26,408 nt of DNA from a virus: positions 1 through 26,408 of the IMG/VR virus record IMGVR_UViG_3300033571_012080; one strand, given 5' to 3'. Every line of letters starts with the position of its first letter. The stretch's first letter is position 1. The translations under genes and the position numbers were made by a program. Positions 3,117-25,844 of this stretch are shown piece by piece. Below the pieces are notes generated by a model, which made no database searches, had not been told where the DNA came from, and saw only the letters and a list, made by a program, of their open reading frames with translations.

Positions 3117-5807
3117 ATGGCAACTATTTCAACAAATGACATCAAGATCAGGTATGACATTGACCTGAGCCAATTACAAGCTGCTACAACTCAGTTTGAT
3201 AAATTGACAGCCGAAGAGAGAGCATTACTTGCTGAACTGGGAAAACTAAAGGACAGATTTAAAGAAACAGGAAAAGAAGGCAAGGAATCAACGGAAAAAA
3301 TGATTCCTCCAACCAAAGCAGCAGCAGGTAGTATTGCTGATTTAGAGGCTAAGGTTAGAAGATTAAATGCTGAAGTAAAAAATACAAATTCTACCAATGC
3401 TGATTACTCAACTAAAGTTAAGCAACTTAAATCTGCTCAAGATGAATTAAAAAAAGCCACCGACAACCTAAATAGTAGCCTCAAAAATGTCAAAGAAACT
3501 ACTCAGCAGGCTGGAGGTGGCATGTCACAATTTCAAGCTATTGCTGGCAAAGCTGGAGCTACATTAGCTGGAATTTTTGCTGCTTCAAAAATAGTTGAAT
3601 TTGGTCAAGCAGTAATTGAAACCACGATCAAGTTTGAATCAATGAAAAAAGCAATTGACTTTGCATCTGGGTCAGTTGAAAGTGGAAATAAGAATTTTGA
3701 GTTTATTAGAGAGACTGCAAGTAAATTAGGTCTTGACTTAAAAGGAGCAGTTGAAGGGTACAAGACCTTTGCCTCTGCTGCTAATTTAGCCGGGCAAAGT
3801 AGTGACGAAACCAATAGACAATTTGCAGCAGTAGCCAAAGCAGCACAAGTCATGGGATTGTCTGCAGAGGACACTAAAGGCGCATTTCTGGCTCTTGGAC
3901 AAATGATGTCCAAAGGCAATGTGCAGGCCGAAGAACTTAGAGGTCAGCTTGGTGAGCGACTTGTTGGAGCATTTGGCATAGCTGCTAAGGCTATGGGAGT
4001 AACCACAGGAGAGCTAAATAAGATGCTTCAGAAAGGTCAGGTGCTTGCTGCTGACTTCTTACCTAAGTTCGCCACTGAGCTTGAAAACACATTTGGAAAA
4101 GGTAATGATCAAGTTACTACACTTGCAGCCAGCCAGAACAGGTTTAATTCATCCATTGACCAACTAATTCTGGCAATAGGTAACAAGCTAAACCCATTCT
4201 TAAAAGGTGCTTATGACTTAGCTGCCGGAATAGCCACATCGCTTCAAAAGGCAGCAGGAGGAACAGGTGCTAAACAAGCAACTGATGAGCAGATTGCAGC
4301 CAGAAGGACAGAATCTGAACTAGCTCAGAAAATTCTTGACATAAGCATTAAGCAAGGAGTATTTATCAGCAGGCAATCAGCTGCTAGAGCATTGCTTGGA
4401 GAAATTGACCAAAGAATCACTAATGCTCAATTGAAGCAAATTGATGCAAGATTAACTAAGGATAAGATTAGACTAGAATCAGCTACCAAGGAGATTAGCA
4501 TATTACAAGAGCAGGAAAAGATATACGAAAAGATTGCTGGAGTAATAGTTAATACTCCACCTCCACCCAAACCAGTTGATGAGAAGGATTTAAAAGCTGA
4601 GTTTGACTACAGAATGAAATTGCTTGAGCTTGAAAAGCAACAATTGGTTTTAATGGCTCAAATTAGAGGTGATAAAAATGGCGAACTCGGTGCTGAAAAG
4701 ATATTCCAGGAAAAGGTTTATCAGTTAAGGAAGCAGTACAGCAATAGATTTATTGAGCTTATTAATAATGAAAAGGATGCCAGCGAAAAATCAAAAAATG
4801 AAAGAATTAATATAATCAAAAGTGAATTAAACGCTAGCAATTTACAGCGGAAAAAAGCAGCCAAGGATTTTCAAGATGCATCAAATGCTGAACTATTGAC
4901 TACTAAAACCGGTCTTGAATCTCTGCGAAATTTAACTGATGCAAACTATAAGCAGATGCAGCAGGACAAGGACAGAGCGATGAAGAAATCAATGGATCAA
5001 ACCAAGGCGCAGTATGAGTGGGAACTAAGAGAGTGGCAGAGGAAAGAGGAGATGAAAAATGCCATGACGCAAAAAGGCATAGAAATAGGTCAGACCTTAA
5101 TTGCTGGAGCATTTGATTACTATCAGAACACACTTAACAATGAGTTATCGGTGCTTCAGAAGCGTTATGACGAGGAGGTCAGGCTAGCAGATGGCAATCA
5201 GCAGAAGATTGATGAGGCTACTATTAAGTTCAGGGAAAAAGAAAAAGAAATTAAGACTCAACAATTCAGAGCGCAGCAGTTGCAGTCGATTGCTCAAATA
5301 GCCTTTGCAGCAGCACCGGAGATCATCAAGTATGCAGTGTCAGCTCCACCATTAGCTGCTTTAGTTGCTGCTCTTGCAGCTGCTCAGACTGCTGCTGTGT
5401 TAGCTCAGCCAGTTCCTGAGTTTGCAGAAGGTACTAAAGGCAAGCCATTCAAAGGGGGGAAAGCGATTGTTGGTGAGCGAGGAGTTGAGAAGGTTGTTAC
5501 AGAGTCTGGCAAGGTGTACTTTACTCCACCTACTGCTACCTTGGTAGACCTTCCAAAGGGCGCACAAGTAATTCCTAACCATGCGCTGAGTAAGCGAGAG
5601 GTATTCCTGGCTAATCATTATGCCAACAGAAGCAGCAGCATGACTGCCTCTCCGGTGGTAGGTGAGCTTCGTGAGTTAGGCACTATCCTGAAAGGCCTAC
5701 CAATCACCCAGCTTAACATGGATGAGCGAGGCTTTGAGAAGTTCATCAGGACTCCACGAAGAACAACTAAGATATTAAATAACAGATTTCGCAGTGATGC
5801 GTCATAG
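3117..5807 (+). CDS. Tail tape measure protein
   Basis: 896 residues; sets tail length and is ejected with DNA in siphoviruses. The N-terminal third is charged and heptad-like. At about residues 255-330 it carries the tape-measure N-terminal domain signature (MSKGNVQAEELRGQLGERL, then KGQVLAADFLPKF). A further coiled coil spans about 390-700, and an Ala-rich hydrophobic stretch lies at about 722-765 (APPLAALVAALAAAQ). The C-terminus (FAEGTKG...GERGVE...PKGAQVIPNHA) is the familiar tape-measure end. The first two thirds are clearly more AT-rich than the last third, suggesting mosaic origin. The gene is bracketed by a terminator plus -7 element on both sides, so it may be its own transcription unit. 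Confidence 0.95.
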   Translation: MATISTNDIKIRYDIDLSQLQAATTQFDKLTAEERALLAELGKLKDRFKETGKEGKESTEKMIPPTKAAAGSIADLEAKVRRLNAEVKNTNSTNADYSTKVKQLKSAQDELKKATDNLNSSLKNVKETTQQAGGGMSQFQAIAGKAGATLAGIFAASKIVEFGQAVIETTIKFESMKKAIDFASGSVESGNKNFEFIRETASKLGLDLKGAVEGYKTFASAANLAGQSSDETNRQFAAVAKAAQVMGLSAEDTKGAFLALGQMMSKGNVQAEELRGQLGERLVGAFGIAAKAMGVTTGELNKMLQKGQVLAADFLPKFATELENTFGKGNDQVTTLAASQNRFNSSIDQLILAIGNKLNPFLKGAYDLAAGIATSLQKAAGGTGAKQATDEQIAARRTESELAQKILDISIKQGVFISRQSAARALLGEIDQRITNAQLKQIDARLTKDKIRLESATKEISILQEQEKIYEKIAGVIVNTPPPPKPVDEKDLKAEFDYRMKLLELEKQQLVLMAQIRGDKNGELGAEKIFQEKVYQLRKQYSNRFIELINNEKDASEKSKNERINIIKSELNASNLQRKKAAKDFQDASNAELLTTKTGLESLRNLTDANYKQMQQDKDRAMKKSMDQTKAQYEWELREWQRKEEMKNAMTQKGIEIGQTLIAGAFDYYQNTLNNELSVLQKRYDEEVRLADGNQQKIDEATIKFREKEKEIKTQQFRAQQLQSIAQIAFAAAPEIIKYAVSAPPLAALVAALAAAQTAAVLAQPVPEFAEGTKGKPFKGGKAIVGERGVEKVVTESGKVYFTPPTATLVDLPKGAQVIPNHALSKREVFLANHYANRSSSMTASPVVGELRELGTILKGLPITQLNMDERGFEKFIRTPRRTTKILNNRFRSDAS

Positions 5808-20218: not shown

Positions 20219-20222
20219 TTTG

Positions 20223-20298
20223 TGGTGGAATCCGGAATCGAACCGGGGATGCAACCTTTGCAGGATTTGTGGGCCAACCCTCATTACGCCTTTCCACC
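20223..20298 (-). tRNA. tRNA-Cys(GCA)-like gene, imperfect fold
   Basis: On the minus strand GGTGGAA (20298-20292) pairs perfectly with TTCCACC (20230-20224), enclosing 76 nt in total with the discriminator A at 20223. The T-arm GGTTCGATTCC is canonical. The anticodon loop CTGCAAA gives GCA (Cys). Weak points: the D-arm is long and pairs poorly, the anticodon stem has a mismatch or bulge, the first T-stem pair is C-A, and the discriminator is A where Cys tRNAs normally have U. CCA is not encoded. It may be functional but divergent, or a decaying copy. Confidence 0.65.
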
Positions 20299-20350
20299 TA
20301 ACCCCGGAAGTTTGAATTATTCAGGGACAACCGGGAATGTTTTTGTTTGC

Positions 20351-20370: not shown

Positions 20371-20464
20371 ACTTATTGCACAAATCTACGGCAATTGTTT
20401 GGTTTTGCCGTTGTTCTATGTTGCATATATCACGCAATATTGCGGCAATAGGATAGTTAGTAGC
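20371..20464 (-). repeat. Degenerate attC-like site after methyltransferase gene
   Basis: On the minus strand it begins GCTACTAAC (20464-20456), an exact copy of the box at 21711-21719, then TATCC, then TATTGCCGCAA, a loop, TTGTGCAATA, one base, and GTAGC. The arms pair with one bulge and one G-T pair. Compared with the two good sites it lacks one T of the final GTT. Together with 20465-20549, which holds only AT-rich sequence and the end of a doubtful ORF, it fills the gap between the phage promoter and the methyltransferase gene. Confidence 0.4.
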
Positions 20465-20549
20465 AAGCGGGCGGACGTGCTTCGATTGAAGTTCAGGATA
20501 GAAAAAAGTATTAAAAATTTTCCCTCCCTCTTTGTCTGCTTCGCAGCCA

Positions 20550-21653
20550 TTAGATTTTTGATAACCATTGTTCATATACTTGTTTTGCTATTTGTGCAGT
20601 CATTACAGGTGGAACACTCATTCCGATTAGGTAATTATATTGCACACCTTTAAAATTGTAATCTTGTGGGTAGCTTCCAATGCAACAGCTTTCTGCTTTA
20701 TTTGGCTTCCTGTATTCATCAAACAAATAAATAACATCAGAATTACTCGTGTATGTCATAGGAACAATGTCTTGATATAAATACTTATTTGTAAAGCATC
20801 TTTCAGCACCTTCAACCCTTTTGATTGTATCACAAAAACTTTCATCACCTTTTTTTCTGTTATTCCAATATTCAAACATTTTACCTTGTGAAGCAGGTCT
20901 GTCATCTATACCCTTCTCGTAAAATTCACCAAATCTAATTTCAGGCTCATTAAATTCAAGTTTTAATTTTGGATTTACAGTAAACATATCTTGCTGTTCT
21001 AAAAATGGTTCAGATAAATCTTTTCTTAATGCCACAAAAAACACTCGTTCCCTGCGTTGTGGAACTCCCATTTTTGAAGCATCTAAAAGCCAATGTTGGC
21101 AATAGTAACCAGCTAAATCAAATTCCCTATAAATTTGTCTAACATAGCTTTTTGCATCACCTAAAAGCAATCCTTTTACATTTTCTGCAATTACTACTTT
21201 TGGTTGTAGCTTTTTAGCCAAATCAATAAAATCAAAAAACAAAGTATCTAATATCTGTTCTGCTTGTCCTTCTCTAAATACCTTTTCTTTTCCCCAATCT
21301 TTCTCTCTATTCCCTGCCATTGAAAAGCTACTGCAAGGTGGTGAGCCATCTAAAATATCAAGTTCATACAATTCTTGCGGTAAATCACCACGCAATTTAA
21401 AGGTTTGTATAGGCTCTAAATAAGCGTATTTTGGGTTATGGTTGGCTTTGTATGCTTCAATCATTTTAGGGTCAATTTCATTGCATCCTAATACATCAAA
21501 ACCAGCTAATTTATAACCCATAGTTGAACCACCACCACAAGCAAAGCAACTAAACACTTTGCCCTTTTCTTTTGTAAATACTGCATCCTTCAAAGTCCAT
21601 TTGTAAGGAAAGTTATGTTTGGTTTTTTCAAAACCATTTTTGCCATCGCTCAT
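20550..21653 (-). CDS. C5-cytosine DNA methyltransferase (orphan)
   Basis: 367 residues with the C5-methyltransferase motifs in order: motif I FSCFACGGGSTMGY (34-47), motif IV GSPPCSSF with catalytic C107, motif VI AENVKG (156-161), motif VIII VPQRRERVFF (197-206), and a C-terminal motif X-like IGMSVPPVMTAQIA. It would transfer a methyl group from S-adenosylmethionine to cytosine in a specific site; the target-recognition region lies between motifs VIII and X and does not reveal the site. No restriction enzyme gene is next to it, so protection of phage DNA from host restriction is the likely benefit. It is more AT-rich than the phage genes and lies between attC-like hairpins, pointing to acquisition as a cassette. 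Confidence 0.95.
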   Translation of the reverse strand: MSDGKNGFEKTKHNFPYKWTLKDAVFTKEKGKVFSCFACGGGSTMGYKLAGFDVLGCNEIDPKMIEAYKANHNPKYAYLEPIQTFKLRGDLPQELYELDILDGSPPCSSFSMAGNREKDWGKEKVFREGQAEQILDTLFFDFIDLAKKLQPKVVIAENVKGLLLGDAKSYVRQIYREFDLAGYYCQHWLLDASKMGVPQRRERVFFVALRKDLSEPFLEQQDMFTVNPKLKLEFNEPEIRFGEFYEKGIDDRPASQGKMFEYWNNRKKGDESFCDTIKRVEGAERCFTNKYLYQDIVPMTYTSNSDVIYLFDEYRKPNKAESCCIGSYPQDYNFKGVQYNYLIGMSVPPVMTAQIAKQVYEQWLSKI

Positions 21654-21710
21654 TTTTAATACTTTTTTCTTTAGTGTTCCAATTAAACTTTAGTGCTGAA
21701 AATCCCGCCA

Positions 21711-21798
21711 GCTACTAACACGGGTTTGGCAAAATGGCTTTCCGACACACAAGCCAACGCACAAAAGCCACTTCGCCAAGCCCGAAAACGTTATGTGC
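21711..21798. repeat. attC-like recombination site 1
   Basis: Plus strand: box GCTACTAAC (21711-21719), arm GGGTTTGGCAAAATGGCTTT (21722-21741), 22-nt loop, arm AAAGCCACTTCGCCAAGCCC (21764-21783), spacer GAAAAC, box GTTATGTGC (21790-21798). The arms form 17 Watson-Crick pairs and one G-T pair over 20 positions. Outer AAC/GTT boxes plus long imperfect inner arms is the attC layout. The right box also supplies the stop codon (TAA on the minus strand) of the 76-aa gene. Confidence 0.6.
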
Positions 21799-22021
21799 CA
21801 TAAGACACCAACACCCAACCAATCCAAACGTGATTATGATAGCCGTCATAATAATGGTTATCATCATTGTGGACTATTTCAAATTTGAATTTTCTTTTAA
21901 GGTAAATGTCCAAATAGCACAATCGCCACCTAAATATTTTACCAGCTATAAAATGATTGAAGCCCCCATACTTTTTCAGACGGCTATCAAAAACACTTAT
22001 TCCATACTTAAATAATTTCAT
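21791..22021 (-). CDS. 76-aa cassette protein, unknown
   Basis: MKLFKYGISVFDSRLKKYGG... with a basic N-terminal half and an aromatic/His-rich C-terminal half (DDNHYYDGYHNHVWIGWVLV). No signal peptide or clear membrane helix; function unknown. I chose ATG 22021, which lies about 24 nt inside the cassette's left box on the minus strand, rather than ATG 22048, which falls in the attC-like site. Its stop TAA is embedded in the attC-like box, as is common for genes in integron cassettes. Confidence 0.65.
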   Translation of the reverse strand: MKLFKYGISVFDSRLKKYGGFNHFIAGKIFRWRLCYLDIYLKRKFKFEIVHNDDNHYYDGYHNHVWIGWVLVSYGT

Positions 22022-22036
22022 CGTTCTAAAACTTAC

Positions 22037-22137
22037 GGCACATAACAAGGGTTTTGCGTAATAGCCATATCAAGTGTCGTGGTTAATTTTAAGTTTCTAC
22101 TAAGGGCTACTACGCAAAGCCCGAAAACGTTACAAGC
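22037..22137. repeat. attC-like recombination site 2
   Basis: Plus strand: box GGCACATAAC (22037-22046), arm GGGTTTTGCGTAATAGCC (22049-22066), 38-nt loop, arm GGCTACTACGCAAAGCCC (22105-22122), spacer GAAAAC, box GTTACAAGC (22129-22137). The arms give 16 Watson-Crick pairs, one G-T and one mismatch of 18. It shares AAGCCCGAAAACGTTA with site 1, so the two are related. Confidence 0.6.
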
Positions 22138-22141
22138 AATA

Positions 22142-22357
22142 CTAATCACCATAAGTTTTCTCATAATACTCAACACTCCTGTCAAACCCCCGGAAGGCAA
22201 GGTTCATGGCAATGTAGGCGGCATCATGGGCATCAATGATTTGATCCTTTTCCATATCCTTTGCCTCCTCAAGTATGGATTGCCAAGTGAGTCTATCCTT
22301 TGGCTCTTCCCATAGCTTTTGAAATAGCCATTGCACTGCCGTCTGTTTATTCTCCAT
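22142..22357 (-). CDS. Small TAVxWL-type phage protein, copy 1
   Basis: 71 residues from ATG 22357: TAVQWLFQKLW near the N-terminus, an acidic helical middle, and the end YYEKTYGD. I associate 'TAVEWL...YYEKTY' proteins with early/accessory regions of Bacteroidota phages; the function is unknown to me. It is a paralogue of the gene just upstream. A longer ORF from 22426 would lie inside that upstream gene, so I reject it. Overlap with the upstream gene is 11 nt. Its stop sits only a few bases before attC-like site 2. Confidence 0.75.
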   Translation of the reverse strand: MENKQTAVQWLFQKLWEEPKDRLTWQSILEEAKDMEKDQIIDAHDAAYIAMNLAFRGFDRSVEYYEKTYGD

Positions 22358-22592
22358 AATTCTTCTCGTAATATGTGTCAAAATCATCTGGAGCTTCCTC
22401 CCCAGGGAAGAATAGAGTTCCTTCACTTAACTCTCTTATGTACTTGCAGCGTTTAAATCCTTCGGTATAAGCGGAAGATAATTGCTCATTGTGCATTGCC
22501 ATTGCCTGTTGGAATAACCCTTCAAATTGAACCTTCTGCCCATCGGATAGGTGGAGGTTCAATGCGTCTTGAAGCCACTCAACTGCGGTCAT
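22347..22592 (-). CDS. Small TAVxWL-type phage protein, copy 2
   Basis: 81 residues from ATG 22592: TAVEWLQDALN at the N-terminus, a helical middle (GLFQQAMAMHNEQLSSAYTEG), and YYEKNYGE at the end. It shares both ends with the next gene downstream, so the pair looks like a tandem duplication with a diverged middle. ATG 22592 lies one base after the stop of the upstream gene, which favours it over the ATGs at 22610 and 22604. Confidence 0.78.
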   Translation of the reverse strand: MTAVEWLQDALNLHLSDGQKVQFEGLFQQAMAMHNEQLSSAYTEGFKRCKYIRELSEGTLFFPGEEAPDDFDTYYEKNYGE

Positions 22593-22773: not shown

Positions 22774-23000
22774 TGGATTAGTTCATCTATTCTAATATTG
22801 TGCTTATCAAAGACATCATTAACTCTTTCAATTAAATACCAGCCATCTATATGCTTGCCATCTTCCGACTCATCAACAGCCTTCCTAATTATTCCGGTTA
22901 GTTCAAAGATAGCAAGAGCCATGTCAAAGGACTTGATGAACCGAAAGTGAGCCATAGCATCATCTGAGTCATTTAGATTAAAATTGATTGTTGCTCTCAT
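22770..23000 (-). CDS. Small phage protein, unknown
   Basis: 76 residues: INFNLNDSDDAMAHFRFIKSFDMALAIFEL, then a charged end. The N-terminal 'NLND...AHxRxxKS.DMALA' pattern resembles a small protein I have seen in Bacteroidota phage accessory regions; no function is known to me. ATGA overlaps at both ends place it firmly in this minus-strand operon. Confidence 0.78.
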   Translation of the reverse strand: MRATINFNLNDSDDAMAHFRFIKSFDMALAIFELTGIIRKAVDESEDGKHIDGWYLIERVNDVFDKHNIRIDELIQ

Positions 23001-23707
23001 CTTATTTGTCTTTTTTTCAGTGATTGAAGGTGACCGATATGCTTAACAAAGCCTCTGCATAGGCACATGCCTACATAGCCAGCTTCGTAGTACTTCTTGT
23101 TGTATTGCTTTTCCGCAATGATGTGGTCATTGCTTCGCCATGTGCATAAGTCGCTGAACTTGCCCATTGCAAGGTAATCAGAGAGCCTCCTGAGTCCTGG
23201 ATTCCAAGTGAAGCCATGCCAGTCTCCCTTATAACGGTGCGCCAGTTGCTGGTATCTTACTCCCTTCTTAGTTAGCTTGACTCCGGGCAGTACAGTGTGA
23301 CCATTACGGTCATTAGGATGCCTGATCCACACACATGCACACTTAGGCTCAGCTTCCAGCACAGAGCGAGAATCGCCTATAAAGCCACTGTTATAAAACT
23401 CCCAGTCATCTTCGCAATGGAAAATGTATGGTGTCTGCACAAGGCTGTAAGTCTTATCAATAGCATTTACCTGCCCATCAAACTCACTGAATGTCCACTC
23501 AGCTCCAATTTGCCAGTGCCTCATCAGGAAGCGATTAAGCTCATTAATAAGTTGCTGGTTATACTGCCCTGAGTCATCATGAATGTAGAAAGCTGCCGGA
23601 GGCGCACCATCCCAATAAGACACTAGGCTGGAGATAGTTTTCTCCAGCAAATCCCACCTGCCACAACTGGTCAGGCAGACTGTTACATCACGATCACCCG
23701 AAAACAT
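22997..23707 (-). CDS. GT2-like glycosyltransferase
   Basis: 236 residues from ATG 23707 (a TTG at 23716 is the longer alternative). The N-terminus VTVCLTSCGRWDLLEKTISS, the segment YIHDDSG (41-47) and the DxD-like HCEDDWEF (97-104) are the hallmarks of GT-A fold, family-2-like transferases; the acidic residues bind the metal and nucleotide sugar. A lower Trp-rich region (WHGFTWNPGLRRL) probably shapes the acceptor site. It lacks membrane helices, so it likely acts in the cytoplasm on DNA, protein or a soluble precursor. It is tightly packed with small phage genes, so it is a phage gene rather than a host intrusion. Confidence 0.82.
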   Translation of the reverse strand: MFSGDRDVTVCLTSCGRWDLLEKTISSLVSYWDGAPPAAFYIHDDSGQYNQQLINELNRFLMRHWQIGAEWTFSEFDGQVNAIDKTYSLVQTPYIFHCEDDWEFYNSGFIGDSRSVLEAEPKCACVWIRHPNDRNGHTVLPGVKLTKKGVRYQQLAHRYKGDWHGFTWNPGLRRLSDYLAMGKFSDLCTWRSNDHIIAEKQYNKKYYEAGYVGMCLCRGFVKHIGHLQSLKKRQIR

Positions 23708-23813
23708 AAGTAACAAATTTGATGATTAATAAACCTATCAAGCAGGCATAGACTAAATAGAATGAGCATCTCCAAAGTGCCTCCTTAACCATTGAGTTTA
23801 TATGTCTGTTCAT
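23694..23813 (-). CDS. 39-aa single-helix membrane peptide
   Basis: MNRHINSMVKEALWRCSFYL, then a hydrophobic stretch (VYACLIGLLIIKFVTYVF). One membrane helix preceded by basic residues, so the N-terminus is probably cytoplasmic. It starts one base after the upstream stop (TAA T ATG) and its end overlaps the glycosyltransferase start by 14 nt; this packing is the main reason to accept so short an ORF. Function unknown. Confidence 0.55.
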   Translation of the reverse strand: MNRHINSMVKEALWRCSFYLVYACLIGLLIIKFVTYVFG

Positions 23814-24710: not shown

Positions 24711-25192
24711 TAGTCACTAAAGTAACAGTTGAGAGCGCACTAAAGAGTCTCTGCGAGAACTTAGCAGGCACATTTGTCGGCAACATGCTCAACTATGGGG
24801 AGGCTGTGGAGAGCATTGTGGAGGGATCAGCTGGCAACTATGTGACCAGGGATGGCTCAACTTATTGTGCTGTCAATGACACCTATCCACTTGTAGTATT
24901 CTTGGTGAGGGAAAATGCCTCAGTAGAAGCTACTCCAGCCGGAGGCAGGGCAGGAAGCCTACTAAGGACAGTCAATTTTAAGCTAATTGCTAACAGCAAG
25001 TTTGAAAACTCAGAGTTCGGAATCACATCAATCATAAACCGCACCAAAGGCATAACCTATGCAGGCACAGACTTCAATTCAAAAGCAATCGCAAGCCAGT
25101 ACTTCGGACTGCCAGAGCGAAACTTTGAAACCTTCTTCTTCGCAATTGACTTCTCAGTCACAGAGCGAATCAGTTGTGAAGTTGCCTGTTGA
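24707..25192 (+). CDS. Structural (connector/tail) candidate
   Basis: 161 residues. Start overlaps the previous stop as ATGA. The protein has a beta-rich middle (YPLVVFLVRENASVE; LLRTVNFKLIANS) and ends FETFFFAIDFSVTERISCEVAC. Size and position next to a morphogenesis-like gene suggest a tail terminator or connector, but no diagnostic motif is visible. The 3' end overlaps the following glycosyltransferase by 17 nt. Confidence 0.65.
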   Translation: MIVTKVTVESALKSLCENLAGTFVGNMLNYGEAVESIVEGSAGNYVTRDGSTYCAVNDTYPLVVFLVRENASVEATPAGGRAGSLLRTVNFKLIANSKFENSEFGITSIINRTKGITYAGTDFNSKAIASQYFGLPERNFETFFFAIDFSVTERISCEVAC

Positions 25193-25844
25193 TGCCATTT
25201 ACTTTATTAGTCTCCAGAGGGCAGCAGTCAGAAGAGCCAAGCTTCAGGAGCATCTATTAAGAAATGGAATTGTTGATAGGCATGGATGTATAGCCATGTG
25301 GCATCTGGCTAATAATGGCAGTAGGGTAGGTCATTCAGTTAATAACTCACTCAAGGCCTCTAAGCGCAGGCCTAAGATGTCAATCAGTGAGATAGGCTGC
25401 TGTGCTTCTCACCGGGAAGTTTGGACTAAAATTGTCCAGAATGGGCATCAGTCAGCTTTGATTCTGGAGGATGATGCCAGGTTTCACATTCAAAAGCTAA
25501 AACAACTTGTGACAAATTGGAACATGTTGCCAGAGTTTGACTTCCTGCATTTAGGCTGGGAGTATTATGCTGGCTATAAGGAGCAGACCATTGAGAAGGT
25601 TGAAATTGATGGACTGCCTAATCTCTGGAAAGGAGATGGCATGTGGCTGACCCATGCCTACATCATTACTAATGAATGCGCTTTGGATTGGCTAACTAGG
25701 ACACAAGTTCAGACTAATGGACTTGATGGCATGACCGCAGATATGCAGAGTGACTGCAGAGCCTATGGGTTTAAGCCAGGAATTGCTTACCAGGAGGTAG
25801 GCACATCAGGCCATTTAAGAAGCCAAATTCACCACACAGGGTAA
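25176..25844 (+). CDS. Glycosyltransferase family 25-type protein
   Basis: 222 residues from GTG 25176. Family-25 signatures are clear: YFISLQRAAVRRAKLQEHL at the start, SEIGCCASHREVW (71-83), ALILEDDARF with the acidic cluster at 97-100, and a late GLDGMTADMQSDCRAYG acceptor-side segment. Family 25 enzymes add galactose or related sugars to lipooligosaccharide or protein. I prefer GTG 25176 to ATG 25059, because the extra N-terminal 39 residues are Gln/Ser-rich and are simply the shadow of the upstream gene. It lies between virion genes, suggesting that a phage structural protein is the substrate. Confidence 0.85.
   Translation: MKLPVDAIYFISLQRAAVRRAKLQEHLLRNGIVDRHGCIAMWHLANNGSRVGHSVNNSLKASKRRPKMSISEIGCCASHREVWTKIVQNGHQSALILEDDARFHIQKLKQLVTNWNMLPEFDFLHLGWEYYAGYKEQTIEKVEIDGLPNLWKGDGMWLTHAYIITNECALDWLTRTQVQTNGLDGMTADMQSDCRAYGFKPGIAYQEVGTSGHLRSQIHHTG

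Follow-up and report, generated by a model that had tools for sequence, protein, structure and literature searches.

An attI-like entry site and exchangeable, reversed gene cassettes in integrase-less tailed phages, with a candidate integron-type recombinase in Bacteroidota

A virus record of 26,408 bases (the whole of it is called the window below) was found to be a fragment of a tailed phage, with recognisable terminase, tape measure and portal protein, and to contain two consecutive integron-type cassettes at 20457-21790 and 21791-22129, each with private GTT/AAC boxes and an attC-like hairpin. Taken together with the junctions in related phages, this suggests that the phage carries an integron platform without an integrase and that recombination is supplied in trans, a reading that we consider likely.

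Results

Two cassettes with private boxes and hairpins

The features of the array and its borders are as follows (a slash within a sequence marks the crossover).

20425-20456, plus strand: attI-like cassette entry site ATATATCACGCAATATTGCGGCAATAGGATAG/, crossover G20456/T20457
20457-21790, plus strand: cassette 1 (TTAGTAGC...ACG), 1334 nt, R'/R'' boxes 20456-20471 and 21704-21719
20550-21653, minus strand: C5-cytosine DNA methyltransferase, 367 aa (PF00145, 1.3e-44), reversed relative to attC polarity
21711-21798, plus strand: attC-like site 1, R'' GCTACTAAC, arms CGGGTTTGGC and GCCAAGCCCG, R' side AAAACG/TTATG
21791-22129, plus strand: cassette 2 (TTATGTGC...ACG), 339 nt
21791-22048, minus strand: cassette 2 ORF, 85 aa, with its start inside the R'' box
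22037-22137, plus strand: attC-like site 2, followed by phage flank TTACAAGCAATAC...
22142-22426, minus strand: phage core ORF and right-flank marker, ending beside the array, about 72-84% conserved among relatives

With the region read as an integron array, the exact crossover points are G20456/T20457, G21790/T21791 and G22129/T22130. An earlier sequence-only reading of this DNA had described private complementary boxes and two hairpins at these places, and direct reading of the sequence bore this out: box 20456-20471 (GTTAGTAGCAAGCGGG) pairs with 21704-21719 at 14/16 positions, box 21790-21804 (GTTATGTGCCATAAG) pairs with 22032-22046 at 14/15 positions, and AAGCCCGAAAACGTTA is common to both hairpins (21778-21793 and 22117-22132). 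Its interpretation of the segments as integron cassettes is supported; it overlooked the conserved attI-like left border and the backward orientation of the genes relative to attC polarity.

Beyond the GTT, the boxes match at 10/12 positions for cassette 1 and at 11/12 for cassette 2. For 90 cassettes located between adjacent sites and taken from other contigs, the 12 nt after GTT matched the AAC partner at 7.7 positions on average, as compared to 4.8 (sd 1.7) for mismatched pairs. Between the boxes, the L''/L' arms pair at 10/10 positions including wobble, and many different pair types occur per arm position across the sites, which had been selected for pairing. A strict hairpin finder identified 283 sites in the loci and 20 in the reversed sequence. 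A looser finder was dropped, as it gave nearly equal numbers of hits in reversed phage sequence; given this lack of specificity, the conclusions are based on box matches, aligned junctions and the stricter finders.

Integron attC sites recombine through their folded bottom strand, which has extrahelical bases. The DNA fold z-scores of the window hairpins were modest (-1.0 to -2.8 versus shuffles); for attC-like site 1 the bottom strand is the better-folding one, for site 2 it is not. Single-strand folding as sole proof was dropped, the thermodynamics being too weak by itself. A search of the window against Rfam returned no family at E up to 1. Variants of a 16-mer with AAACCC, which lie in other sequence without hairpins, were set aside as chance, and a promoter inside the hairpin loop was weighed by eye and discarded. 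A T-G mismatch is common at one fixed arm position in the attC sites, and the loops of both viral and bacterial sites (e.g. L014 and L122) are AT-rich with a loose TTTGT-centred repeat every ~20-25 nt.

The cassette 1 methyltransferase has visible PPCSSFS and ENV motifs, looks like an intact 5-methylcytosine enzyme and is 69% identical to the first-cassette methyltransferase in Flavobacterium phage tooticki6-1. Cassette 2 is also present in a second contig (L119), and its opening bases recur in another (L083) after a different attC. No family was found for its 85-aa ORF in Pfam and PHROG searches.

The hairpin family in viruses and Bacteroidota

When the hairpins were sought in viromes and Bacteroidota genomes, as the sequence-only reading had proposed, no fewer than 80 IMG/VR contigs and more than 100 Bacteroidota genome contigs proved to carry copies, every one with its own boxes. 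The core AARCCCGAAAACGTTA occurred in more than 100 IMG/VR stretches among the matches listed, the majority with a full hairpin, and a longer core in at least 117 genome stretches, almost all of them from Bacteroidota. The hairpin core was also seen in MAGs labelled Staskawiczbacteria, Betaproteobacteria and Bacillota (L130, L151, L154 and L199), which could be due to binning errors or to a wider spread.

A conserved attI-like entry site at the left border

The sequence ATATATCACGCAATATTGCGGCAATAGGATAG is retained immediately ahead of /TT in another 17 contexts from the window relatives, with several unrelated sequences upstream and different cassettes following the TT. The exact site pattern was present in 20 IMG/VR contigs, in which 15 different starts follow the site; in most relatives examined the first cassette after it is closed by matching boxes (10 or 11/12 in most cases) and a hairpin, and at least three relatives (L278, L281 and L347) look empty at this position. 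The left border of the array is shown by these comparisons to be a conserved attI-like site that receives different first cassettes at G/TT. Allowing three mismatches, the phage site was found in 0/395 sampled Bacteroidota genomes, so that it is no plain copy of a single common host attI.

Terminator-like inverted repeats (TTGTCAAG...CTTGACAA and GTCGCAAA...TTTGCGAC) lie directly before the entry site in L281, L283, L323, L325 and L347. The site was also observed at 3466-3498 of a 41.8-kb contig (L442) with a different upstream sequence, which may be an unrelated phage using the same entry site.

Insertion and excision at G/TT

In L347, which belongs to the window's own phage family, the empty site reads AATAGTATAG/TTATCAGCAATT..., and the corresponding filled site in L388 reads AATAGTATAG/TTAGGTGC...(809-bp cassette)...CCCTAACG/TTATCAGCAATT..., the downstream flank being that of L347. 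The ORF in the 809-bp cassette has a DPPY methyltransferase-like motif. Between the cultured Flavobacterium phages mumin6-1 and mumin6-3 exactly 506 bp were excised, changing AACG/TTATGC to AACG/TTAACC, and 11 cultured phages with a conserved left flank (ATCATGTAATATTGTAG/TTA) have several different cassettes in first position. The check put forward in the sequence-only reading, i.e. whether the break in relatives falls at G/TT, was passed in all three comparisons, and as judged from these alignments insertion and excision of cassettes occur precisely at this point. Out of 450 pairwise breakpoints, 188 were at most 12 nt from a hairpin GTT, for which 8% of positions qualify, and many of the remaining ones sit at the common left border, a position that the hairpin finder left uncounted. 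At the window's genome position L314 has an array of a single cassette, the attC of which is 95% identical, and the window thus resembles an array of this kind with the methyltransferase cassette added at the entry site.

An IntI-like recombinase beside bacterial arrays

A PF00589 search of 17 phage records (the window, ten related viral records and six complete cultured phages) gave no recombinase, confirming the earlier observation that an integrase is missing from the phage. These phages thus have neither a recombinase adjoining the attI-like site nor an intI gene next to attI within one element, as a complete integron would have. An IntI-related recombinase was found in 13/117 Bacteroidota loci of at most 8 kb, picked by the hairpin alone among the matches listed, where chance would give about one (a rough expectation inferred from the copies seen). 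These recombinases were called by NF040815 ('site-specific tyrosine recombinase/integron integrase') or fell just under its cut-off; three of them were tested by profile and the remainder of the 13 by tblastn.

The recombinase is mostly located directly upstream of the array and on the same strand, and in F. silvisoli (L264) it is followed by nine attC sites. When the bacterial attI was located by box complementarity, the first cassette started 81-143 nt past the end of the recombinase match in 10/13 arrays, and these attI sites mostly consist of a palindrome, ~11 nt and AG/TT. The Bacteroidota recombinase is without ~42 residues of the IntI insertion: the spacing from GKGxKDR to HxLRH is 70-71 aa in nearly all of these enzymes, as compared to 112-113 in IntI1 and Vibrio IntI. 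Its TIGR02249 scores of 191-236 bits (cut-off 265) fit the missing insertion, and none of the 29 searched Bacteroidota genomes carrying these attC sites had a match above the cut-off. In a small, midpoint-rooted tree the Bacteroidota recombinase joins IntI (support 100/99) and forms a group of its own (88/87), with XerC/XerD in a separate clade. These data show an association in Bacteroidota of an apparently IntI-like recombinase with the same attC family. Two attC-bearing IMG/VR contigs encode relatives of this recombinase with 43% and 36% identity (L093, 9459-10226, a long branch in the tree, and L054, 4237-5013, respectively); the two contigs could come from phages or prophages that encode an enzyme themselves, or from a host.

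Polarity and cargo of the phage cassettes

The gene of a usual integron cassette reads towards its own attC, and the genes of the window cassettes are reversed. Among cassettes closed by matching boxes, to which the count was restricted, the main ORF ran against attC polarity in 68/72 viral cassettes and with it in 98/106 bacterial cassettes (68:4 versus 8:98, Fisher's exact test, p = 9e-35, with related cassettes not being fully independent). The 65 viral cassette ORFs included 23 matches to N6_N4_Mtase, 4 to MT-A70, 3 to C5 methylase and 1 to D12, corresponding to at most 31 proteins, and one ORF matched a TET-associated glycosyltransferase. None of the 25 families seen most often among 75 bacterial cassette ORFs was a DNA methyltransferase. 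By these counts the phage cassettes are shown to differ as a seemingly separate pool, with inverted polarity and enrichment for methyltransferases.

Discussion

Relation to known systems

The sequence-only reading had assumed few or no reports of attC arrays in tailed phages, which did not hold: PMC9892861 (Qi et al. 2023) describes attC clusters with methyltransferases in virulent phages, including Polaribacter P12002L, with 5/6 tested attC sites active with IntI1, so that the general idea is not new. The CALINs described there resemble the window in having attC-bounded cassettes in integrase-less tailed phages, methyltransferase cargo and, in one case, a Bacteroidota phage. An attI-like site is not described for them in the sections covered, and in the window relatives insertion, excision and an inverted pool were seen by comparison. 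P12002L was rejected as a carrier of the same hairpin family, since both the hairpin and the AATATTG site are absent from its cassette region.

The canonical IntI integrons (class 1 and the Vibrio superintegron) are alike in having attI beside a tyrosine recombinase, R''/L''/L'/R' hairpins and a G/TT crossover, and the Bacteroidota recombinase groups with IntI. They differ in that the Bacteroidota enzyme is ~42 aa shorter in the IntI insertion and points towards the array, and in that the phage version is without a recombinase and has its genes reversed relative to attC. The closest cultured counterparts are Muminvirus, Lillamyvirus and Hattifnattvirus of Baltic Flavobacterium (PMC7077304), which have a reversed-gene array, several methyltransferases, an attI-like site and one attC with stretches of more than 95% identity to window site 1, but a different backbone, for which megablast gave no match to the window, and an attI variant that is shorter (ATCATGTAATATTGTAG/TT). 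In that paper, where integrons are nowhere mentioned, the phages plating poorly on LMO6 were without one particular methyltransferase, and plating efficiency tracked its presence.

Among open-licence papers, preprints excluded, none was found to describe an attI in a phage, an inverted pool of phage cassettes or an insertion-less Bacteroidota integron enzyme, and given this scope we make no claim of priority.

Proposed mechanism

In the mechanism that we propose, the phage would retain the attI-like site at 20425-20456, circular cassettes with an attC-like hairpin would enter it between G and TT, and cassettes would be excised or exchanged at attC sites, as supported by the comparison of relatives. 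Catalysis would take place in trans, most likely by an IntI-related tyrosine recombinase of Bacteroidota, and would presumably use single-stranded folding of attC. Phage cassette genes read from the attC side to attI, the reverse of what is seen in bacterial cassettes, and would probably be transcribed from the phage side; with this inverted orientation a newly inserted cassette would come to lie at the distal end of the phage-side transcript. Given that the pool is rich in DNA methyltransferases, the platform most likely enables phages to swap protection against host restriction, and the benefit would be evasion of that restriction.

A host enzyme acting in trans, already suggested in the sequence-only reading, is the best-supported mechanism, considering the absence of a phage recombinase and the IntI-like enzyme upstream of bacterial arrays. 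We infer that this enzyme acts on phage DNA and that the phage probably borrows the unusual recombinase from its Bacteroidota hosts. With the phage-type attI in 0/395 genomes, the enzyme is tied to the phages by the shared attC type only. Canonical IntI uses its specific insertion on attC hairpins, and the lack of this insertion counts against the assumed activity of the Bacteroidota recombinase on these hairpins; the moderate folding and the failure of site 2 to favour the bottom strand likewise count against the explanation that we regard as best. On balance the evidence leans towards a widespread Bacteroidota integron lineage, with an IntI-sister recombinase without the insertion, being exploited in trans by virulent phages that have their own attI and a separate, inverted pool given over largely to DNA modification, with anti-restriction genes swapped singly.

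Three other explanations have to be weighed. Host XerC/XerD or a different resident tyrosine recombinase could catalyse the same cassette exchange, and both the absence of a recombinase from the phages and the palindromes in the attI-like site (CGCAATATTGCG and GATAGTTATC, seen by eye) would fit, given that Xer-type enzymes bind palindromes. However, the same attC family is adjoined by the array-linked recombinase in 13/117 short loci among the matches listed, in the majority of which an array on the same strand begins after it, and XerC/D form a clade separate from this enzyme, which makes the explanation improbable. We find it rather more doubtful that the cassettes are old acquisitions which co-infecting phages now exchange by homologous recombination at their hairpins, with no active site-specific recombination: the attI-proximal junctions have little beyond GTTA in common (L347/L388 and the 11 cultured phages) and the mumin6-1/6-3 deletion fuses two different attC sites at AACG/TTA, although many hairpins are more than 90% alike, phages recombine readily and part of the breakpoints lie away from GTT.

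Movement of canonical cassettes by a true, class 1-like IntI of the host appears very unlikely. The GTT/AAC boxes and hairpins match, and IntI1 recombined 5/6 tested attC sites of other phages in E. coli according to PMC9892861, but TIGR02249 gave no match above cut-off in the 29 Bacteroidota genomes with these attC sites, the arm spacers of 1 nt and 5 nt are unlike those of the Vibrio and class 1 sites compared, and just one complete integron in Bacteroidetes is reported with IntegronFinder 2.0 (PMC9024848). Bacteroidota integrons might have been missed by this program because their recombinase is without the IntI-specific insertion.

Returning to recombination in trans by the Bacteroidota enzyme, the findings point to a common integron-like system in this phylum and raise the question of how a recombinase without the IntI-specific insertion would read the hairpins. 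In the earlier picture attC clusters in phages were few and of unclear use, and here a phage family appears to have a dedicated insertion site. Whole cassettes, many with methyltransferases, distinguish cultured phages that are otherwise nearly identical, and cassette exchange is thus a testable route to a changed fit to host restriction.

Other features near the array

The minus strand at 20221-20303 resembles a tRNA-Cys, with a T-loop (TTCGATTC), a GCA anticodon-like loop and a CCA end. It is ~90% conserved in three relatives (L299, L302 and L305) and folds no better than shuffles, and ARAGORN reported no tRNA in the window, including this segment, which is possibly a decayed or odd phage tRNA. 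Two further ORFs at 22997-23716 (no match in a PHROG search) and 25059-25844 look glycosyltransferase-like by eye and are possibly involved in modification of phage DNA or of the host surface.
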